From Flavobacteriales bacterium (GTDB taxonomy: Bacteria; Bacteroidota; Bacteroidia; Flavobacteriales_F; PHOS-HE28), in NCBI GenBank assembly GCA_016788485.1, contig JAEUSV010000061.1, forward strand, positions 1 to 36,038: DNA of 36,038 bases, read 5' to 3'. The position numbers were made by a program, and so were the translations under genes. Under the pieces are notes generated by a model that worked only from the letters and a program-made list of their open reading frames with translations, was not told the DNA's origin and ran no database searches. Positions 27,356 through 36,038 of the stretch are shown here, piece after piece. Position 1 is the first letter of the stretch. Each line of letters opens with the position of its first letter.

Positions 27356-29629
27356 TCAACGACCACGACCACCGCCGCTGCGGGGCGTGGCCTGGCGCGT
27401 GCCACCACCGCCACCACCACGCGGTGCCTGGGCCGGCGCACGGTTCTGGTACTGGTTGAAGTTGTTGCTGCGCTGCTGGCCCCGGGCGCGGTCCTGCTGC
27501 ATGCGGTAGGGATCGCCGGTGGAAGGGCGGGTCTGGGGCTGCGCTGGGCGAGTGGACGGTTGGGCGGGGCGGGTGGAGGGCTGTGTGGCACCACCGCCTC
27601 GGGATACGTCGTAACCGCCCTTGTTCTGCGGCACGTTGTTCCACTTGCCGTTGTCGTATTGCTGCGTTCCCTTGCCTTCTCCGCGGTACACGTTGCCCTT
27701 CGGGTCGGCGTACACATCGCGCCCACCTCCGGCCGGTTGTGTCGAAGGCCGCGTGGCGCCCCCCTGGGCCGGCTTGCCGGCCGGTTGTGTGGAAGGACGG
27801 CTGGCGCCAGCTTGATCGCGGCCCGCCGTGGGTTGGGAGGGCTTCACACCGGGGCGGTCGGAGCGGTTGTAGATGTTGCCGTTGCCCACATTGATGTTGG
27901 TGCTGTTGTCGATGTTGATGGTGTTGCCGCCACCACCGTACGGGGGACGATGCCCGTAGTAGCCCCCGGGCGGGTGATAGGGCGGGTACGGGGGATGGTA
28001 CATCGGCGGGCCCCACCAGCCGCCGCAGTGGTAGGGGGCACCCCAACCACCGTAGGTACTGAAGTGGAACCAGCCCGCGCTGTAATGGAAGCCCATGCTC
28101 CAGCCCGTCCACGGGTTGTAATGCACGCTGAAACCATAGGTGCAGGGGCGGGGGTAGTAGTACACGGGCGGCGGTGGCGGATAGTACCAGCCAGTTCCGT
28201 AGATGACAGTGCCGCCGTATACGTAGCTGCCCGTATAGCCGGGGGTGTAGCCCACGTAGACCACGTCTGGCGTGCTGTCGTACACCTGTACGTACTTCAC
28301 ATTGTACACCGGGCTGCTGGGTTCGATCGTTCTCACCGCCTCGGGCACGCTGGTGCTCACCGACCACGGGCCGTTCGGCGACGGGCCATCGTACCACACG
28401 GCGTTGTCGCACACATGGTAGCGGTCGCCCACCTTGAGCACGGTGGTGCTGGCGTTGATCGCGTAGCTCATGTTCGTGCCATCGACCTTCTTCCACTCCG
28501 GCTCGCCCTTGTAGGTCACCTTCAACGTCACGTTCTTGCGGTCCACGGTGGCCGTCTGCGGGATCATCGCATCACGCGCGGCCTCGGTGGCCGCTGCGGT
28601 GCCCGGCACGCTGGCGAGCACCTCATCCTCGTCCGTGCCCTCGGGGATCTTGGCGAAGTCGGCTGGCAGGTCCGCGCCCTTCACGTATTTCCATGGCCCC
28701 TTGACCAGGTCCCCGCTCGCGAACCACCGGCCGCTCAGGAGAACGTAGTACTGCTGGGAGCCGATGTCGAGGAAGATGGGGGTGGAGGCGTTGCGCGCGC
28801 TCAGAAGGTTGGTGCCCGAGACCGGCTTCATGTCCACCACGCCATCGGTCTGCAGCAGCTCCGCAGGCGTGGTGCGCACGATGATCTCCGGCACCTTGCC
28901 GTCGGGCGCGGTGTAGCGCCCCTCGGCCTTCGCAGCGCTGTCCACCTTGTGGCTCACCTGCAACAGGTCCTGCGGCACGTTCGTGGCCGGCTGGTAGGGC
29001 CCCTTGGCGTCGGAGGCGGTGTACCAGCTGGGCATGGCGTAGAGGTAGTGCGTGCCACCCTTTGCCTTCACCAGCACCAGGGCGCTGTTCAGCACGCGCT
29101 CGTAGCCGCTGTTCGGCACCGGGTCGTAGATCGGCTCACCATCGAGGAACAGCAGCAGACCGGGCTTGTCGCGGTAGATGATCTCGGGCGGGTTGTTCGC
29201 GTACTCACCATCCTGATGCACCTCGCTCTCCAAGGCGGCCACAATGAGATCGATGGAGACCGGCGCCAGGCGCTTGGGGATCTCCGTGGTCAGGTACTCC
29301 TTGAACCGGCGCACCTTGGCGGTGTCCGCCACGCTCGGGAAGCGCACATCGGTCACGGTGAACTGCTTCAGCACGCCCATGCGCGAGTCGCGGTCCACCT
29401 CAAGGAAGCCGTTGGCCCACATGGCCCCGAACACCGGGCTCTTGTCCTGCGCGCCCTTCACCGAGATGGCCGCACGCGCGGTGAAGCGTCCATCCCTGTA
29501 CGATTCGGGCTGCGGCGTGTAGATGGTGGTGGTGTACCCGCTGGTCTCGAGCACCATGGGCCATTGCTCCTGGGCGGTAAGAAGGCCCGCGGAGAACAGC
29601 GTGAAAAGCAGGAAAAGGGATCGACGCAT
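27356..29629 (-). CDS. exported protein with low-complexity Tyr/Pro/Gly-rich C-terminus
   Basis: The protein has 757 aa from ATG 29629; the signal peptide is MRRSLFLLFTLFSAGLLTAQ. Residues ~25-440 are a globular region with repeated short motifs (PEIIYRDKPGLLLFLDGEPI, YYVLLSGRWFASGDLVKGPW, HVCDNAVWYDGPSPNGPW), where a 'W...GPW' element recurs. Residues ~450-485 contain VYVGYTPGYTGSYVYGG, a block I recall from proteins loosely annotated as carbohydrate-binding V/XII-like. Residues ~490-560 are Tyr/Pro/His/Trp-rich (YYPPPPPVYYYPRP, YHPPYPPYHPPGGYY). The rest is disordered, with PSTQPAG and QPSTRPA repeats and a basic Gly-rich end. No T9SS domain. The function is unknown; wall-like, adhesive or metal-binding roles are guesses. 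Confidence 0.85.
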   Translation of the reverse strand: MRRSLFLLFTLFSAGLLTAQEQWPMVLETSGYTTTIYTPQPESYRDGRFTARAAISVKGAQDKSPVFGAMWANGFLEVDRDSRMGVLKQFTVTDVRFPSVADTAKVRRFKEYLTTEIPKRLAPVSIDLIVAALESEVHQDGEYANNPPEIIYRDKPGLLLFLDGEPIYDPVPNSGYERVLNSALVLVKAKGGTHYLYAMPSWYTASDAKGPYQPATNVPQDLLQVSHKVDSAAKAEGRYTAPDGKVPEIIVRTTPAELLQTDGVVDMKPVSGTNLLSARNASTPIFLDIGSQQYYVLLSGRWFASGDLVKGPWKYVKGADLPADFAKIPEGTDEDEVLASVPGTAAATEAARDAMIPQTATVDRKNVTLKVTYKGEPEWKKVDGTNMSYAINASTTVLKVGDRYHVCDNAVWYDGPSPNGPWSVSTSVPEAVRTIEPSSPVYNVKYVQVYDSTPDVVYVGYTPGYTGSYVYGGTVIYGTGWYYPPPPPVYYYPRPCTYGFSVHYNPWTGWSMGFHYSAGWFHFSTYGGWGAPYHCGGWWGPPMYHPPYPPYHPPGGYYGHRPPYGGGGNTINIDNSTNINVGNGNIYNRSDRPGVKPSQPTAGRDQAGASRPSTQPAGKPAQGGATRPSTQPAGGGRDVYADPKGNVYRGEGKGTQQYDNGKWNNVPQNKGGYDVSRGGGATQPSTRPAQPSTRPAQPQTRPSTGDPYRMQQDRARGQQRSNNFNQYQNRAPAQAPRGGGGGGTRQATPRSGGGRGR

Positions 29630-29646
29630 GGGGGACGGATGAAAGC

Positions 29647-29654
29647 GAAAGGTA
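29647..29654 (-). promoter_or_regulatory. -7 box TACCTTTC for the Tyr/Pro/Gly-rich protein gene
   Basis: TACCTTTC on the minus strand matches TAnnTTTG at 7 of 8 positions, 17 nt before the ATG at 29629 and 26 bp after the previous stop. It suggests this gene can be transcribed apart from the DUF4421 gene upstream. Confidence 0.4.
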
Positions 29655-29680
29655 CTTGCCCCGCGCCACATCCTCGGTGA

Positions 29681-30761: not shown

Positions 30762-31778
30762 TCAGCGGACGATGCGTACCGCCTGCCGTCCGACACGCAC
30801 GATGTAGGCGCCCGCTGGCAGTGCGGGGAGCACAAGCAGGTTGCTGGTGAAGCGTCCCTGCCACACCGGGCGCCCGAGCAGGTCGAGCACCTGCACAGGA
30901 GAGCCGTCCGCGGCGGCGCCATCGAGGTGCAGTCCATCGTCGCCGCTCCAGATGCGCAGGGCAGGCAGGTCGTCCTCACCGATGCCCGCGGTCGGCCCCC
31001 AGATGCTCACCACCCACTCCGGATGGTCGATGAAGGGGTTGCGGTTGCCCTGGATGGCGAAGATCGCGTTGTTGCGGTCGACCTCCTTGGTGCTCACGGG
31101 GTCGTTCGCGTGCCACTGCAGCAGCAGGTTGGTGGCCCAGATGTTGAGGTCGCCGGCCGCGATCATGTCGCTCGTCCAGCCCGGCACCTGCGGCATGTAG
31201 CGCGTCATCATATAGAAGTAGGTGCGCGCGATGTCGCCCTTGAAGGCATCGATGGGCTCGCACACCGTGTTGGAATAGCCCGTCCAGTTGCTCGGGCCCA
31301 CCTTGGTGCCGTTCTGCGAGGTCCACGTGGCGCTGCCCACCCGGCCGTACGGCAGGTCGCCACGCCGGTTGTTGACGTAACCGTCGGTGGGGTAAATGTG
31401 GAACAGGTCGCTGCTCATGGGCGCCGCGCTGTTGAACCAGTTCTGCGGGAAGCTGTGCTCGCGGTTGTAGCAGTCGCCCTCGTTGCTGTACGTGCCGCAC
31501 TGGTCCACCGTGAAGGTGAAGCTGTACGGCGCCGTGCCGCCCGGGATGTCGCTGTAGATGTCCCAGACCTTGCCGTCGGGGCGGTCGTCGGTGGAGGGGA
31601 AGTAGTTCCACAGCTGGCTGTACTGGTACACCGTGTGGTCGTTGATGATGTTGTACAGCGCCACCTTCAGCGGCTGGCCGTACAGCCCTGCGGCCGGGTC
31701 GTAATACCCGGGCGGTGGTTGGGCATGGGCAAGGAGCGGGGCGGCCAGAAAGAAGGAGAGGAGGGAGCGGAACAGCAT
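30762..31778 (-). CDS. secreted endonuclease I (EndA/NucM family) with T9SS sorting domain
   Basis: The protein has 338 aa from ATG 31778; the signal peptide is MLFRSLLSFFLAAPLLAHAQ. Catalytic-region motifs of the family are present: NREHSFPQNWF (105-115) and DLFHIYPTDGYVNNRRG (124-140), then the conserved GNRNPFIDHPEWV. Such enzymes cut DNA and RNA non-specifically and need a divalent cation. The C-terminal ~80 residues (LRIWSGDDGLHLDGAAADGS to RQAVRIVR) are a T9SS sorting domain, so the nuclease acts outside the cell, perhaps for phosphate or nucleotide scavenging or degrading extracellular DNA. It diverges from the flavoprotein gene and likely has a leaderless mRNA. Confidence 0.95.
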   Translation of the reverse strand: MLFRSLLSFFLAAPLLAHAQPPPGYYDPAAGLYGQPLKVALYNIINDHTVYQYSQLWNYFPSTDDRPDGKVWDIYSDIPGGTAPYSFTFTVDQCGTYSNEGDCYNREHSFPQNWFNSAAPMSSDLFHIYPTDGYVNNRRGDLPYGRVGSATWTSQNGTKVGPSNWTGYSNTVCEPIDAFKGDIARTYFYMMTRYMPQVPGWTSDMIAAGDLNIWATNLLLQWHANDPVSTKEVDRNNAIFAIQGNRNPFIDHPEWVVSIWGPTAGIGEDDLPALRIWSGDDGLHLDGAAADGSPVQVLDLLGRPVWQGRFTSNLLVLPALPAGAYIVRVGRQAVRIVR

Positions 31779-31783
31779 CGCTT

Positions 31784-31791
31784 CAAAGGTA
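31784..31791 (-). promoter_or_regulatory. -7 box TACCTTTG for the endonuclease gene
   Basis: A perfect TAnnTTTG match on the minus strand, ending 5 nt before the start codon at 31778, so the transcript would be leaderless or nearly so. Confidence 0.6.
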
Positions 31792-31797
31792 GACCGC

Positions 31798-31805
31798 GAC
31801 CTTTG
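31798..31805 (+). promoter_or_regulatory. -7 box GACCTTTG for the flavoprotein gene
   Basis: A 7 of 8 match to TAnnTTTG on the plus strand, ending 4 nt before the ATG at 31810. It is arranged back-to-back with the endonuclease box, 6 bp apart. Confidence 0.5.
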
Positions 31806-31809
31806 CTCC

Positions 31810-33015
31810 ATGCGCGTGGCGGTGATCGGTGGGGGTGCGGCGGGGTTCTTCGCCGCCATCAGTGCGAAGCAGCACCACCCCCAGGCCGCGGTGGTGCTGC
31901 TGGAGAAGAGCGACAAGCTGCTCGCCAAGGTGCGCATCAGCGGCGGCGGACGCTGCAACACCACCCACGCCTGCCACGGCATCAAGGAGCTCGCGCGGCA
32001 TTACCCGCGGGGCGAGCGCTTCCTGCGCAAGGCCTTCGAGCAGTGGAGCGTGCCCGACACCATCGCCTGGTTCGCGGCGCAGGGCGTGCGGCTGAAGACC
32101 GAGGCCGATGGACGGATGTTCCCCGACACCGATTCCTCGGAGACCATCATCGACGCGTTGCAGGGCGCTGCGCAGCGCAGTGGGGTGGAGGTGCGCCTCC
32201 ATTGCCCCGTGCTTGGCCTGGAGCGCCGTGGCGAAGGCTGGTCGCTGCGCACCCACGCGGGGGCGGAGAGCTTCGACCGCGTGATCGTGGCCACCGGGGG
32301 AAGCCCCAAGCGCGAGGGCCTGCAATGGCTCGCGGACCTCGGCCATCGCATCGTGGACCCCGTGCCCTCGCTCTTCACCTTCAACCTACCCGGCGAGCCG
32401 ATCCGGGCGCTCATGGGCGTGGTGGCCGATCCGGCGCAGGTGCGCATCGCCGGTACCAAGCTGGAGAGCATCGGCCCGCTGCTGGTGACCCACTGGGGCT
32501 TCAGCGGTCCGGCCGTGCTGCGCCTCAGCGCCTGGGGCGCGCGCGAGCTGGCGGCCTGCGATTACCGGTTCACCGCGCTCGTCAACTGGACCGGTGGCCT
32601 CGCCGAGGAGCCCGTGCGCGAGGAACTGCGGGCACTCCGCGACCAGCAGCCCGACCGCAAGCTGCGCAACGCCGTCCCCTTCAAGCTGCCCGCGCGCCTT
32701 TGGGAGCACCTGCTGCGCAAGGCCGGCGCCGACCCCGAGGCCCCGTGCCGCATGCTGGACCGCAAGGCGCTCAACCGCCTGGTGAACACGCTCACCAACG
32801 ATTCCTACGCCGCGCACGGCAAGACCACCTTCAAGGAGGAGTTCGTCACCGCTGGGGGCGTGGCGTTGGACGATGTGGACCCGGCGACCATGCGCAGCCG
32901 CGTGGTGCCCGGCCTGCATTTCGCGGGCGAGGTGCTCGACATCGACGGCATCACCGGGGGCTTCAACTTCCAGGCCGCCTGGACCACCGGCTGGATCGCG
33001 GGCAAGCTGGGGTAG
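31810..33015 (+). CDS. HI0933/BaiN-type NAD(P)/FAD-dependent oxidoreductase
   Basis: The 401-aa flavoprotein begins immediately with the Rossmann FAD motif VAVIGGGAAGFFAA (residues 3-16). It shows the family signature KVRISGGGRCNTTH near 41-54, an ATGGSPKREG segment (~162-171), GPLLVTHWGFSGPAVLRLSA and the C-terminal FAD-binding block GLHFAGEVLDIDGITGGFNF. The family (HI0933, YhiN, BaiN) is large and mostly uncharacterised; one member takes part in bile-acid dehydroxylation. It is cytosolic. The start follows a -7 box by 4 nt, so it is probably a leaderless message. The gene converges with the GNAT gene, with 2 bp between stops. Confidence 0.93.
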   Translation: MRVAVIGGGAAGFFAAISAKQHHPQAAVVLLEKSDKLLAKVRISGGGRCNTTHACHGIKELARHYPRGERFLRKAFEQWSVPDTIAWFAAQGVRLKTEADGRMFPDTDSSETIIDALQGAAQRSGVEVRLHCPVLGLERRGEGWSLRTHAGAESFDRVIVATGGSPKREGLQWLADLGHRIVDPVPSLFTFNLPGEPIRALMGVVADPAQVRIAGTKLESIGPLLVTHWGFSGPAVLRLSAWGARELAACDYRFTALVNWTGGLAEEPVREELRALRDQQPDRKLRNAVPFKLPARLWEHLLRKAGADPEAPCRMLDRKALNRLVNTLTNDSYAAHGKTTFKEEFVTAGGVALDDVDPATMRSRVVPGLHFAGEVLDIDGITGGFNFQAAWTTGWIAGKLG

Positions 33016-33909: not shown

Positions 33910-33917
33910 TACCTTCG
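33910..33917 (+). promoter_or_regulatory. -7 box TACCTTCG driving the cobalamin riboswitch transcript
   Basis: TACCTTCG on the plus strand, 5 nt before the first base of the riboswitch P1 helix (33922), so transcription would start at the aptamer itself. Confidence 0.5.
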
Positions 33918-33921
33918 CACC

Positions 33922-34095
33922 GCGCGATGGTTCCGCGGCACGCCGCAAGGCGGACCGCGGATGAAAAGGGAATCCCGTGTGAACCGGGAGCTGTTCCCGC
34001 AGCTGTGAACCCTGACGACCGCCGCACACGCCACTCCGCACCAGCGGGGGAAGGCGCGGCGGTATGGGGGTGAGCCAGAAGACCTGCCACCGCGC
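33922..34095 (+). promoter_or_regulatory. cobalamin (B12) riboswitch aptamer
   Basis: Conserved elements occur in the right order: AAAAGGGAA (33963-33971), the GAGCTGTTCCCGCAGCTGTG core (33989-34008), GCCACT (34030-34035), GGGGAAGG, and the B12 box GCCAGAAGACCTGCC (34074-34088). P1 forms from GCGCGATGG (33922-33930) and CCACCGCGC (34087-34095), with one mismatch. Binding of adenosyl- or other cobalamin is expected to repress the downstream gene. Confidence 0.93.
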
Positions 34096-34096
34096 C

Positions 34097-34160
34097 GGTC
34101 CCCTCGGGGGCCGCGAACACCAAGGCCCCGGGAAAGGGCCGGTGCGCCTGCGGTACAGGC
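34097..34160 (+). promoter_or_regulatory. riboswitch expression platform with mutually exclusive helices
   Basis: GGTCCC (34097-34102) can pair with GGGGCC (34107-34112), which can instead pair with GGCCCC (34124-34129). The latter can also pair with GGGCC (34136-34140). GCCTG-CGGTA-CAGGC (34146-34160) follows. No U tract is present, so control is more likely translational or Rho-dependent than through an intrinsic terminator. Confidence 0.5.
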
Positions 34161-34233
34161 CGCCGTTCCGTTCCCGTGGTTTCACCACCGATCACGCCGT
34201 GCGGTGAACACGGCAGCAACAACCTCCCGTTCC

Positions 34234-35499
34234 ATGTACCGATCACTGCTCCCTGCGGGCCTGCTGGCCCTGGCCCTCCAGGCCGGCGCACAATCCACCG
34301 TGCACCGCGTGCTCGTGCTCAACGAAGGCTACTACAACATGGCCACCCAGACCCAGGTGGTGCCCGTGAGCCTCGGCAGCTACGACCCCGCCACCGGCAC
34401 CTACCAGACCATCGCCAACATCGCTGATGCGCGCTTCGGCAACCACGTGGCCGTGGAGGACGGCATTGTCTATGTTGCCGCCGACTCCTTCCTGCTCGCC
34501 TACGATGCGGACAGCTACCAGCTGCTCGACCAGACGGTGGTGCACGGCATCCGACGTTTCGCCGTGGGCGACGGCCGCATCGTGTGCACCAAGGGCGAGG
34601 TGGGCGGCCTGCCCACCTACGTCGACGTGCTCGACCAGGCCACGCTCGACCTGCTGTACAGCATCGACCAGACCACGCTGCCCTACAGCTGCGAGGATGT
34701 GGAGATCGCCGACGGCAAGGCTTGGATCGCGGTGAACAACGGCTTCGACTGGGGCAATGCCGTGGGCCAGGTGGGCGTGCTCGACCTGGGCACCGACACT
34801 TGGGCCGGAACCATCGACCTGGGGCCCGACGGCATCAACCCCGAGAACCTCATGGTGACCGCCGACGCCGTGTACGCCTTCAACAACAAGGACTTCAGCG
34901 GCAGCAGCATCAGCAAGATCGGGCGCAGCAGCGGCACGCTCACCTACACCACCGATGTGGCGGTGAACAGCGGCTGCGCCTCCAGCGCTTTGGCCGACGG
35001 CGACATCTTCTTCCTGGAGTACGCGCAGAACGAGCTGGCGCGCTTCGACCTGGGCAGCGATGCCGTGGTGGACACCCTGGGCGGCTCGCCCTCCATCTAC
35101 GGCCTGCTCGACGACCCGGTGAACGGCGTGCTGTACGCCACCACCACGGACTTCCTCACCAGCGGCACCCTGCACGTGCTCGGCTACGGCGGCAACGTGC
35201 TCAGCAGCGTGGCCGTGGGCGTGGCCCCGGGCCGCCTGGCGCTCGACCTGCGCAGCGCCACCGGTGTTGACGAGGAGCTGGAGGCCGCCGTGCGCACCTG
35301 GCCGAACCCCGCCACCGACGTGCTGCACCTGCAGCTGCCCACCGCCGCCACCTACGAAGTGATCGACGCCACCGGGCGCACCGTGCTGGCCGGCCGCGCG
35401 GCAACGGGCATCACCACCCTCGGCGTGGAGGCCCTGCGCCCCGGCCTGTACCACCTGCGCAGCAACGGTCGCCTAGCCGCCCGCTTCACCAAACAGTGA
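34234..35499 (+). CDS. B12-riboswitch-controlled, T9SS-sorted beta-propeller protein (BtuG-like)
   Basis: The protein has 421 aa from ATG 34234, which begins a signal peptide (MYRSLLPAGLLALALQAGAQ). The body is a YncE/BtuG-type seven-bladed propeller, with recurring blades such as ARFGNHVAVEDGIVYVAADS, TLPYSCEDVEIADGKAWIAV, LMVTADAVYAFNNKDF and DDPVNGVLYATTTDFLTSG. The last ~80 residues (VRTWPNPATDVLHLQLP to AARFTKQ) are a T9SS type A sorting domain. Its message carries a cobalamin riboswitch, which points to B12 uptake; in Bacteroides the surface lipoprotein BtuG, also a propeller, binds B12 and passes it to BtuB. Here T9SS sorting would replace the lipid anchor. No btuB or transporter gene is adjacent within the window. 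Confidence 0.9.
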   Translation: MYRSLLPAGLLALALQAGAQSTVHRVLVLNEGYYNMATQTQVVPVSLGSYDPATGTYQTIANIADARFGNHVAVEDGIVYVAADSFLLAYDADSYQLLDQTVVHGIRRFAVGDGRIVCTKGEVGGLPTYVDVLDQATLDLLYSIDQTTLPYSCEDVEIADGKAWIAVNNGFDWGNAVGQVGVLDLGTDTWAGTIDLGPDGINPENLMVTADAVYAFNNKDFSGSSISKIGRSSGTLTYTTDVAVNSGCASSALADGDIFFLEYAQNELARFDLGSDAVVDTLGGSPSIYGLLDDPVNGVLYATTTDFLTSGTLHVLGYGGNVLSSVAVGVAPGRLALDLRSATGVDEELEAAVRTWPNPATDVLHLQLPTAATYEVIDATGRTVLAGRAATGITTLGVEALRPGLYHLRSNGRLAARFTKQ

Positions 35500-35699: not shown

Positions 35700-35777
35700 G
35701 TTGGCAGGTGTTCGAACGCCGTGGTGAACCCCGGTCCTAGGGGATGAGGGCAGGAAGGGCGGACCGCCAGAGGCGGT

Positions 35778-36038
35778 GTGCGATGAATGCACTCGTAACA
35801 CCCGAGCGCTGGGTGGCCAAAGTCCCCTTCACCTCAAGTAATGAATGGCCGAACAATGGGGAAGCTTACATTACAAGGAAGGCGTTGCGGCAGGGGTGAA
35901 TTTGGATTATGCATGACAAGACATACCTATAAATACAGAGGTAATATCAATAAGAATATTGTCAATGCAAAATATACAGCAGCAATAACAATGGAATAGT
36001 AATGATCTGAATTATTCATGTATTCAGAAACAATCTCA
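35778..36038 (+). mobile_element. possible 5' end of a group II intron (continues beyond window)
   Basis: The stretch begins GTGCGATGAATGCAC, fitting the GUGYG 5' end of group II introns, immediately after a small stem (ACCGCC-AGA-GGCGGT, 35763-35777). It then folds like domain I: CTCG/CGAG with loop TAACACC (35792-35806), TTCACCTC (35828-35835) with GGGGTGAA (35893-35900), and inside it GTAATG (35838-35843) with CATTAC (35869-35874). The sequence turns AT-rich after ~35900, unlike the rest of the window. No catalytic domain V or reverse transcriptase is visible because the window ends. It could instead be another structured RNA or an island edge. Confidence 0.45.

Follow-up and report, generated by a model that had tools for sequence, protein, structure and literature searches.

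What does a cobalamin riboswitch control when the gene behind it encodes neither BtuB nor a recognised BtuG? This question is raised by a locus in a stretch of 36,038 nt, referred to here as the window, which comprises positions 1 to 36,038 (forward strand) of contig JAEUSV010000061.1 from a Flavobacteriales bacterium of the PHOS-HE28 lineage (assembly GCA_016788485.1; 3.58 Mb, 84.47% complete). According to a published statement, Bacteroidetes B12 loci include BtuB, and the window-type locus is an exception to it. We propose, with a probability of about 0.7, that a T9SS-tagged remote homologue of BtuG, controlled by a B12 riboswitch, captures corrinoids at the cell surface without a recognised BtuB.

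A Cobalamin Riboswitch Precedes the Propeller Gene

The features of the locus are compiled in Table 1. The B12 aptamer, considered clear in an initial annotation made from the sequence alone, was indeed matched by RF00174 over model positions 1–189 (E 9.8e-27, gathering score 31.5), and no second cobalamin riboswitch was found in the 84.47%-complete assembly. It does lie shortly before the gene, as previously noted; the distance of about 140 nt given at that time has to be corrected, since 128 nt separate the aptamer 3' end from the ATG at 34234. The frame may also be read from a GTG at 34204 to 35499 (431 aa). The ATG was taken as the start because the proteins of relatives begin at the MYRS that it encodes and because the GTG sits inside a conserved leader hairpin. 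In the genus of the window genome the propeller gene stands alone; in the window it is followed by a tRNA, and the contig ends 539 nt past the gene.

Table 1. Coordinates, within the window, of the features of the riboswitch–propeller locus.
Feature	Position	Strand	Basis or remark
Cobalamin riboswitch aptamer (RF00174)	33911..34105	+	109.4 bits, whole model
UUUCACC segment, complementary to hairpin loop GGUGAA	34180..34186	+	Read from the sequence
Leader hairpin GCCGUG-CGGUGAA-CACGGC	34196..34214	+	20 nt before ATG; covariation in genus
Gene for T9SS-tagged BtuG-like propeller, 421 aa	34234..35499	+	Open frame; start from relatives
Sec-type signal peptide, residues 1–20, ending AGAQ, no lipobox	34234..34293	+	Sequence, alignment
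Predicted propeller, residues 21–342	34294..35259	+	Model; fold matches cover 20–342
Cys248 codon	34975..34977	+	Same in 105/106 aligned rows, X in the remaining row
T9SS type A sorting domain, residues 356–409	35299..35460	+	TIGR04183, 22.2 bits, cut-off 23

The Riboswitch–Propeller Pair Recurs in Relatives

To place the locus among its relatives, 58 genomes were searched, 35 of the same genus and 23 of the same class, and a cobalamin riboswitch was present in 54 of them. Clear propeller homologues, some cut by contig ends, were detected in 23 genomes (19 of the genus and four of other families), in all of which the homologue lay just downstream of a riboswitch. A scan of species representatives yielded 58 loci, whose records carry the labels Flavobacteriales, Chitinophagales, Saprospiraceae and others. 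Seventeen of these were left out since their contigs agree in length with genomes of the first set, and two more (L174 and L177) since they came without upstream sequence. Among the 39 loci tested, a riboswitch was located upstream in 28, at 50–388 nt from the chosen start, and none was detected in 11 (L141, L147, L155, L160, L161, L162, L166, L168, L170, L171 and L175). The combination of riboswitch, propeller and T9SS, which the initial annotation suggested looking for in relatives, is a recurrent one.

In three distant loci (L139, L145 and L176), the genes behind riboswitch and propeller encode a PF01497 periplasmic binding protein and a FecCD permease, importer components of the BtuF/BtuC type; the accompanying ABC ATPase was assigned by domain search in L139, and by size and place in L145 and L176. 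The L139 binding protein was weakly related to solved BtuF (E about 1e-3). In NCBIfam, it was matched better by IsdE (haem; E 8.7e-8) than by BtuF (1.6e-4), both far below cut-off, and its sequence does not single out a ligand. Several other neighbours in distant loci, among them PPDK, gyrase B, IF-3 and SecDF, showed no B12 link.

Upstream of the riboswitch–propeller pair, L148:4274-5587 encodes a T9SS-tailed protein containing a Kazal domain, and just after the riboswitch of L117 (G050) there is a more distant T9SS protein of 451 aa that belongs to the propeller's BLAST cluster.

A Covarying Hairpin Lies in the Leader

Shortly before the ATG, each of the 19 propeller-type leaders in the genus carries a hairpin of the form GCCGNN-CGGUGAA-NNCGGC, with the closing cell unpaired in G030. 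Across the 12 distinct hairpins, four of the six pairs change on both sides and 98.6% of the cells are paired; the covariation score was reached by 0 of 500 shuffles. Of 28 further loci, five (L122, L129, L135, L157 and L178) show the pattern as well. It was absent from the 43 other leaders that were scanned, of which the 12 BtuB genomes contributed 17. This covarying element offers a ready reporter for testing.

Upstream of the hairpin, UUUCAC recurs in most propeller-type leaders of the genus, and its complementarity to the loop sequence GGUGAA suggests a switchable pairing. The hairpin is likely part of the expression platform, for which the UUUCACC segment could provide an alternative pairing. 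No terminator was present on the + strand between aptamer and ATG, which makes translation control the likelier mode. The riboswitch would probably turn the propeller gene on when B12 is scarce: low B12 would free the mRNA for translation, with the hairpin acting as expression platform.

Predicted Fold and Relation to BtuG

The predicted model of the window protein is a propeller (pLDDT 89.8, pTM 0.76), in line with the initial annotation, and it has the seven-bladed fold of BtuG. When this model was employed in a structure search, as had been recommended, BtuG filled the top 15 PDB matches. At the sequence level, the relation was strong in profile–profile comparison only (E 1.9e-32 over 310 columns, along the propeller): phmmer against solved BtuG gave E 0.94–0.97, a profile search gave E 0.002 on the last blade only, and identity was 14–18%. 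SAKe/Kelch entries, the best PDB matches by sequence, shared one short repeat motif only and were dropped after the fold search.

BtuG1, BtuG2 and BtuG3 of Bacteroides thetaiotaomicron (DUF5074, PF16819), as described in the available parts of PMC10404256 and PMC6143338, resemble the window protein in predicted fold, in profile homology over the whole propeller, in most of the named aromatic pocket sites and in the B12 riboswitch in front. With regard to the pocket aromatics named there for BtuG2, the propeller family alignment (106 rows, 104 distinct; 11 of the 58 scan loci left out, mostly as cut short) showed an aromatic at four of the five sites; NEG is kept and Trp272 is not. Unlike these proteins, which bear a lipobox and a lipoprotein export signal, the window protein ends in a T9SS tail, is unmatched by DUF5074 (PF16819), has no btuB beside its gene and gives no BLASTP match to BtuG1-3 at 1e-10, the cut-off for BtuG in the available part of PMC6143338. 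Since it departs from BtuG in three published marks (sequence cut-off, lipobox and btuB neighbour), we do not file it as BtuG. The term "BtuG analogue" had been used initially; the likeness to BtuG holds, and a remote homologue fits the 310-column profile alignment better than an analogue. On these comparisons, we consider the window protein a remote homologue of BtuG that likely works like it.

A gene under B12 control need not encode a B12 binder: the propeller could, for instance, be an enzyme or surface protein that the cell requires once a B12-dependent step no longer works, and cobalamin riboswitches often govern B12-independent isozymes. We regard this explanation as unlikely, given that BtuG provided all of the top 15 structure matches, that the named pocket aromatics persist at four of five sites, and that importer-type genes come after the propeller in the three distant loci. 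If the protein captures corrinoids, as we favour, its conserved aromatic pocket would bind the corrin ring.

Signal Peptide, T9SS Tail and Export

A signal peptide and a T9SS sorting domain had both been assigned to the protein beforehand, and both assignments stand. The former is a Sec-type signal, as judged by sequence and alignment. The tail of the window protein, judged by its own sequence alone, is borderline: TIGR04183 (cut-off 23) scored 23.1 bits for the 431-aa reading and 22.2 bits for the 421-aa reading, and PF18962 scored 24.5 bits, under its cut-off of 27. However, 52 of 59 aligned relatives matched TIGR04183 at E ≤ 0.001, and SprA of the T9SS translocon is present in the window genome (TIGR04189, 2526 bits, cut-off 200). 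With a C-terminal sorting domain and the translocon in the same genome, the protein has the marks of a putative type A cargo, and its predicted destination is the cell surface. Sec and then T9SS would carry it out, and the type A tail would keep it there, a task that falls to the lipid anchor in BtuG.

No lipobox was found in the window protein, in contrast with 14 of 18 BtuG-type sequences that matched the pattern. This, together with the fact that some T9SS cargo is released, would also suit a protein that binds corrinoids and is shed into the medium as a soluble carrier. Type A tails, however, commonly lead to surface attachment, and a released carrier would require a receptor of its own, so that we judge a soluble carrier very improbable and retain attachment at the surface as the preferred reading.

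Propeller-Type and BtuB-Type Loci in the Genus

In other species of the genus (e.g., L070), the riboswitch is followed by genes for a T9SS protein with no known domain, a BtuB-like receptor (E 7.5e-62 against solved BtuB) and a DUF5074 lipoprotein (E 1.4e-75 against solved BtuG). These loci share with the window the kind of riboswitch and a T9SS-tagged first protein; unlike the window, they possess BtuB and the BtuG lipoprotein, and lack the window-type propeller and the leader hairpin. Among the 35 genomes of the genus, the propeller was found in 19, BtuB in 12, both in none and neither in four (Fisher p 2.2e-6, or 7.6e-6 for the 24 genomes at least 90% complete). The riboswitch was likewise not seen in the four genomes with neither, three of which are 66–72% complete (G001, G014 and G029) and one 99% (G023). 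Full-length DUF5074 was present in 10 of the 12 BtuB genomes and absent from all 19 propeller genomes, and weak partial matches occurred in G005, G013 and G034, two of them over cut-off. In G006 and G031 the contig breaks off inside BtuB, and in G011 BtuB lies on a different contig from the riboswitch.

In agreement with the initial annotation, which set the propeller apart from any btuB operon, no BtuB gene adjoins it in the contig or in propeller-type relatives: behind the 19 propeller-type riboswitches of the genus, BtuB-cluster genes were absent over a distance of 9 kb or as far as the contig reached. The search for btuB elsewhere, also advised there, found no BtuB orthologue in the 84.47%-complete assembly of the window genome, nor was a DUF5074 BtuG found in it. 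The propeller stands where related species have BtuB–BtuG. When a tree was built from a single receptor gene common to these genomes, the BtuB group fell inside the propeller group in two places; the exclusion therefore rests on about two replacements, and the propeller is likely the older state in the genus.

A BtuB might nevertheless have been missed, either because it lies in the absent part of the assembly or because it is too divergent, in which case the propeller would be a detached BtuG partner. The completeness of the genome and the contig end so close behind the gene are compatible with the first possibility. As for the second, riboswitch-linked receptors of G040, G047, G048 and G051 match the genus BtuB in the plug region at E 1.7e-9 to 5.5e-8, and a divergent BtuB could be among the 18 plug-domain matches of the window genome. 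This is countered by the 14 propeller-type genomes of the genus that are at least 90% complete and have no orthologue, and by the scores of all 12 BtuB genomes (E 1.4e-188 or better). In addition, 12 of the 19 propeller genomes gave no match at E ≤ 0.001 and the other seven only short ones (best E 2.8e-10). We consider an overlooked BtuB rather unlikely, and capture without a recognised BtuB the better reading.

Outside the genus, the exclusion may not hold. Just after the riboswitch of L090 (G038), a 492-aa T9SS protein of the propeller's BLAST cluster precedes BtuB- and BtuG-cluster genes, a layout indicating that one locus can hold both BtuB and a T9SS propeller-like protein. The absence of BtuB is also less sure in the four other-family propeller genomes, as riboswitch-linked receptors there can score as weakly as E 5.5e-8.

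In BtuB-type loci, the gene that opens the series behind the riboswitch (L070:3297-4412) encodes a protein that bears a T9SS tag, contains a duplicated domain and, apart from the tail, matches no Pfam family. Homologues are present in 10 other BtuB-type genomes (L062-L065, L067-L069 and L071-L073). Its predicted model was poor (pLDDT 49.7), and it is possibly another secreted B12 binder. In four of the 12 BtuB genomes (G002, G017, G028 and G032), the cobalamin riboswitch was matched two or three times, and in three of these one match was of low score (27.7–39.5 bits); the 19 propeller-type genomes have a single match each.

A Putative Route for B12 into the Cell

B12-binding domains were found in 58/58 genomes, and in the window genome they include a B12-domain–MeaB fusion. 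CobS was over cut-off in 0/58 genomes, as compared with 10 of 14 in the control set. FecCD permeases occurred in 41/58 genomes and in 17 of the 19 propeller genomes; the window genome has one, with an ABC-type ATPase, read by eye, directly behind. Such a gene content is in keeping with cells that take up B12 and do not assemble it themselves. Passage through the outer membrane would be provided by a TonB-dependent receptor that is not a BtuB orthologue, and the single FecCD-type ABC importer would bring the vitamin into the cell.

A CarboxypepD_reg TonB receptor is encoded upstream of the riboswitch in L139, L156, L176 and L179, and one of the 18 plug-domain matches of the window genome is a homologue (L206:1901-4297, 38–40% identity). 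As the specific receptor partner of the propeller it is a candidate only, with an orthologue in 35/35 genomes of the genus.

An extended scheme, which we offer as tentative and rather doubtful, is a BtuB-free B12 route across the outer membrane in which the T9SS-displayed propeller, behind the same riboswitch, replaces BtuB–BtuG. It would grip the corrinoid in part through a cobalt-thiolate bond or other contact of the invariant Cys248, close to the upper-ligand cavity, and hand it to a non-BtuB TonB receptor; this older system of the genus would have been displaced at least twice by a BtuB–BtuG operon.

Comparison with Other Known Systems

BtuH and BtuJ/DUF4465 are extra surface B12 binders in riboswitch loci, as is proposed for the window protein; unlike it, they have other folds and are described as lipoproteins in the available part of PMC13398666, where T9SS has 0 occurrences. 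In Flavobacterium psychrophilum, a flavobacterium that also has a T9SS, an uptake gene is under a cobalamin riboswitch; in contrast to the window, that riboswitch regulates the TonB receptor itself, near cob genes, and no propeller (PMC9723704, available part). Within open-licence PubMed Central, to which the search was confined (no subscription papers or preprints), no publication was found joining BtuG, or a cobalamin-riboswitch propeller, with T9SS.

In uncultured relatives, a B12-riboswitch locus here holds a BtuG-type protein with no recognised BtuB, and a T9SS tail replaces the lipid anchor. If our reading is true, corrinoid capture and transport can be uncoupled, T9SS would be a display route for vitamin binders, and an outer-membrane B12 receptor would still have to be found in these bacteria.

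Other Features of the Window

On the − strand, positions 30762-31985 encode an Endonuclease I family protein (PF04231, 274 bits), and positions 27356-29671 a 771-aa protein without a Pfam match, whose C-terminal part is Gly/Tyr/Pro-rich by eye. The G+C content is 0.50 at 35700-35999, compared to 0.61–0.74 in the other stretches from 33000 on, and the contig ends there; positions 35700-36038 are possibly a mobile or foreign stretch.
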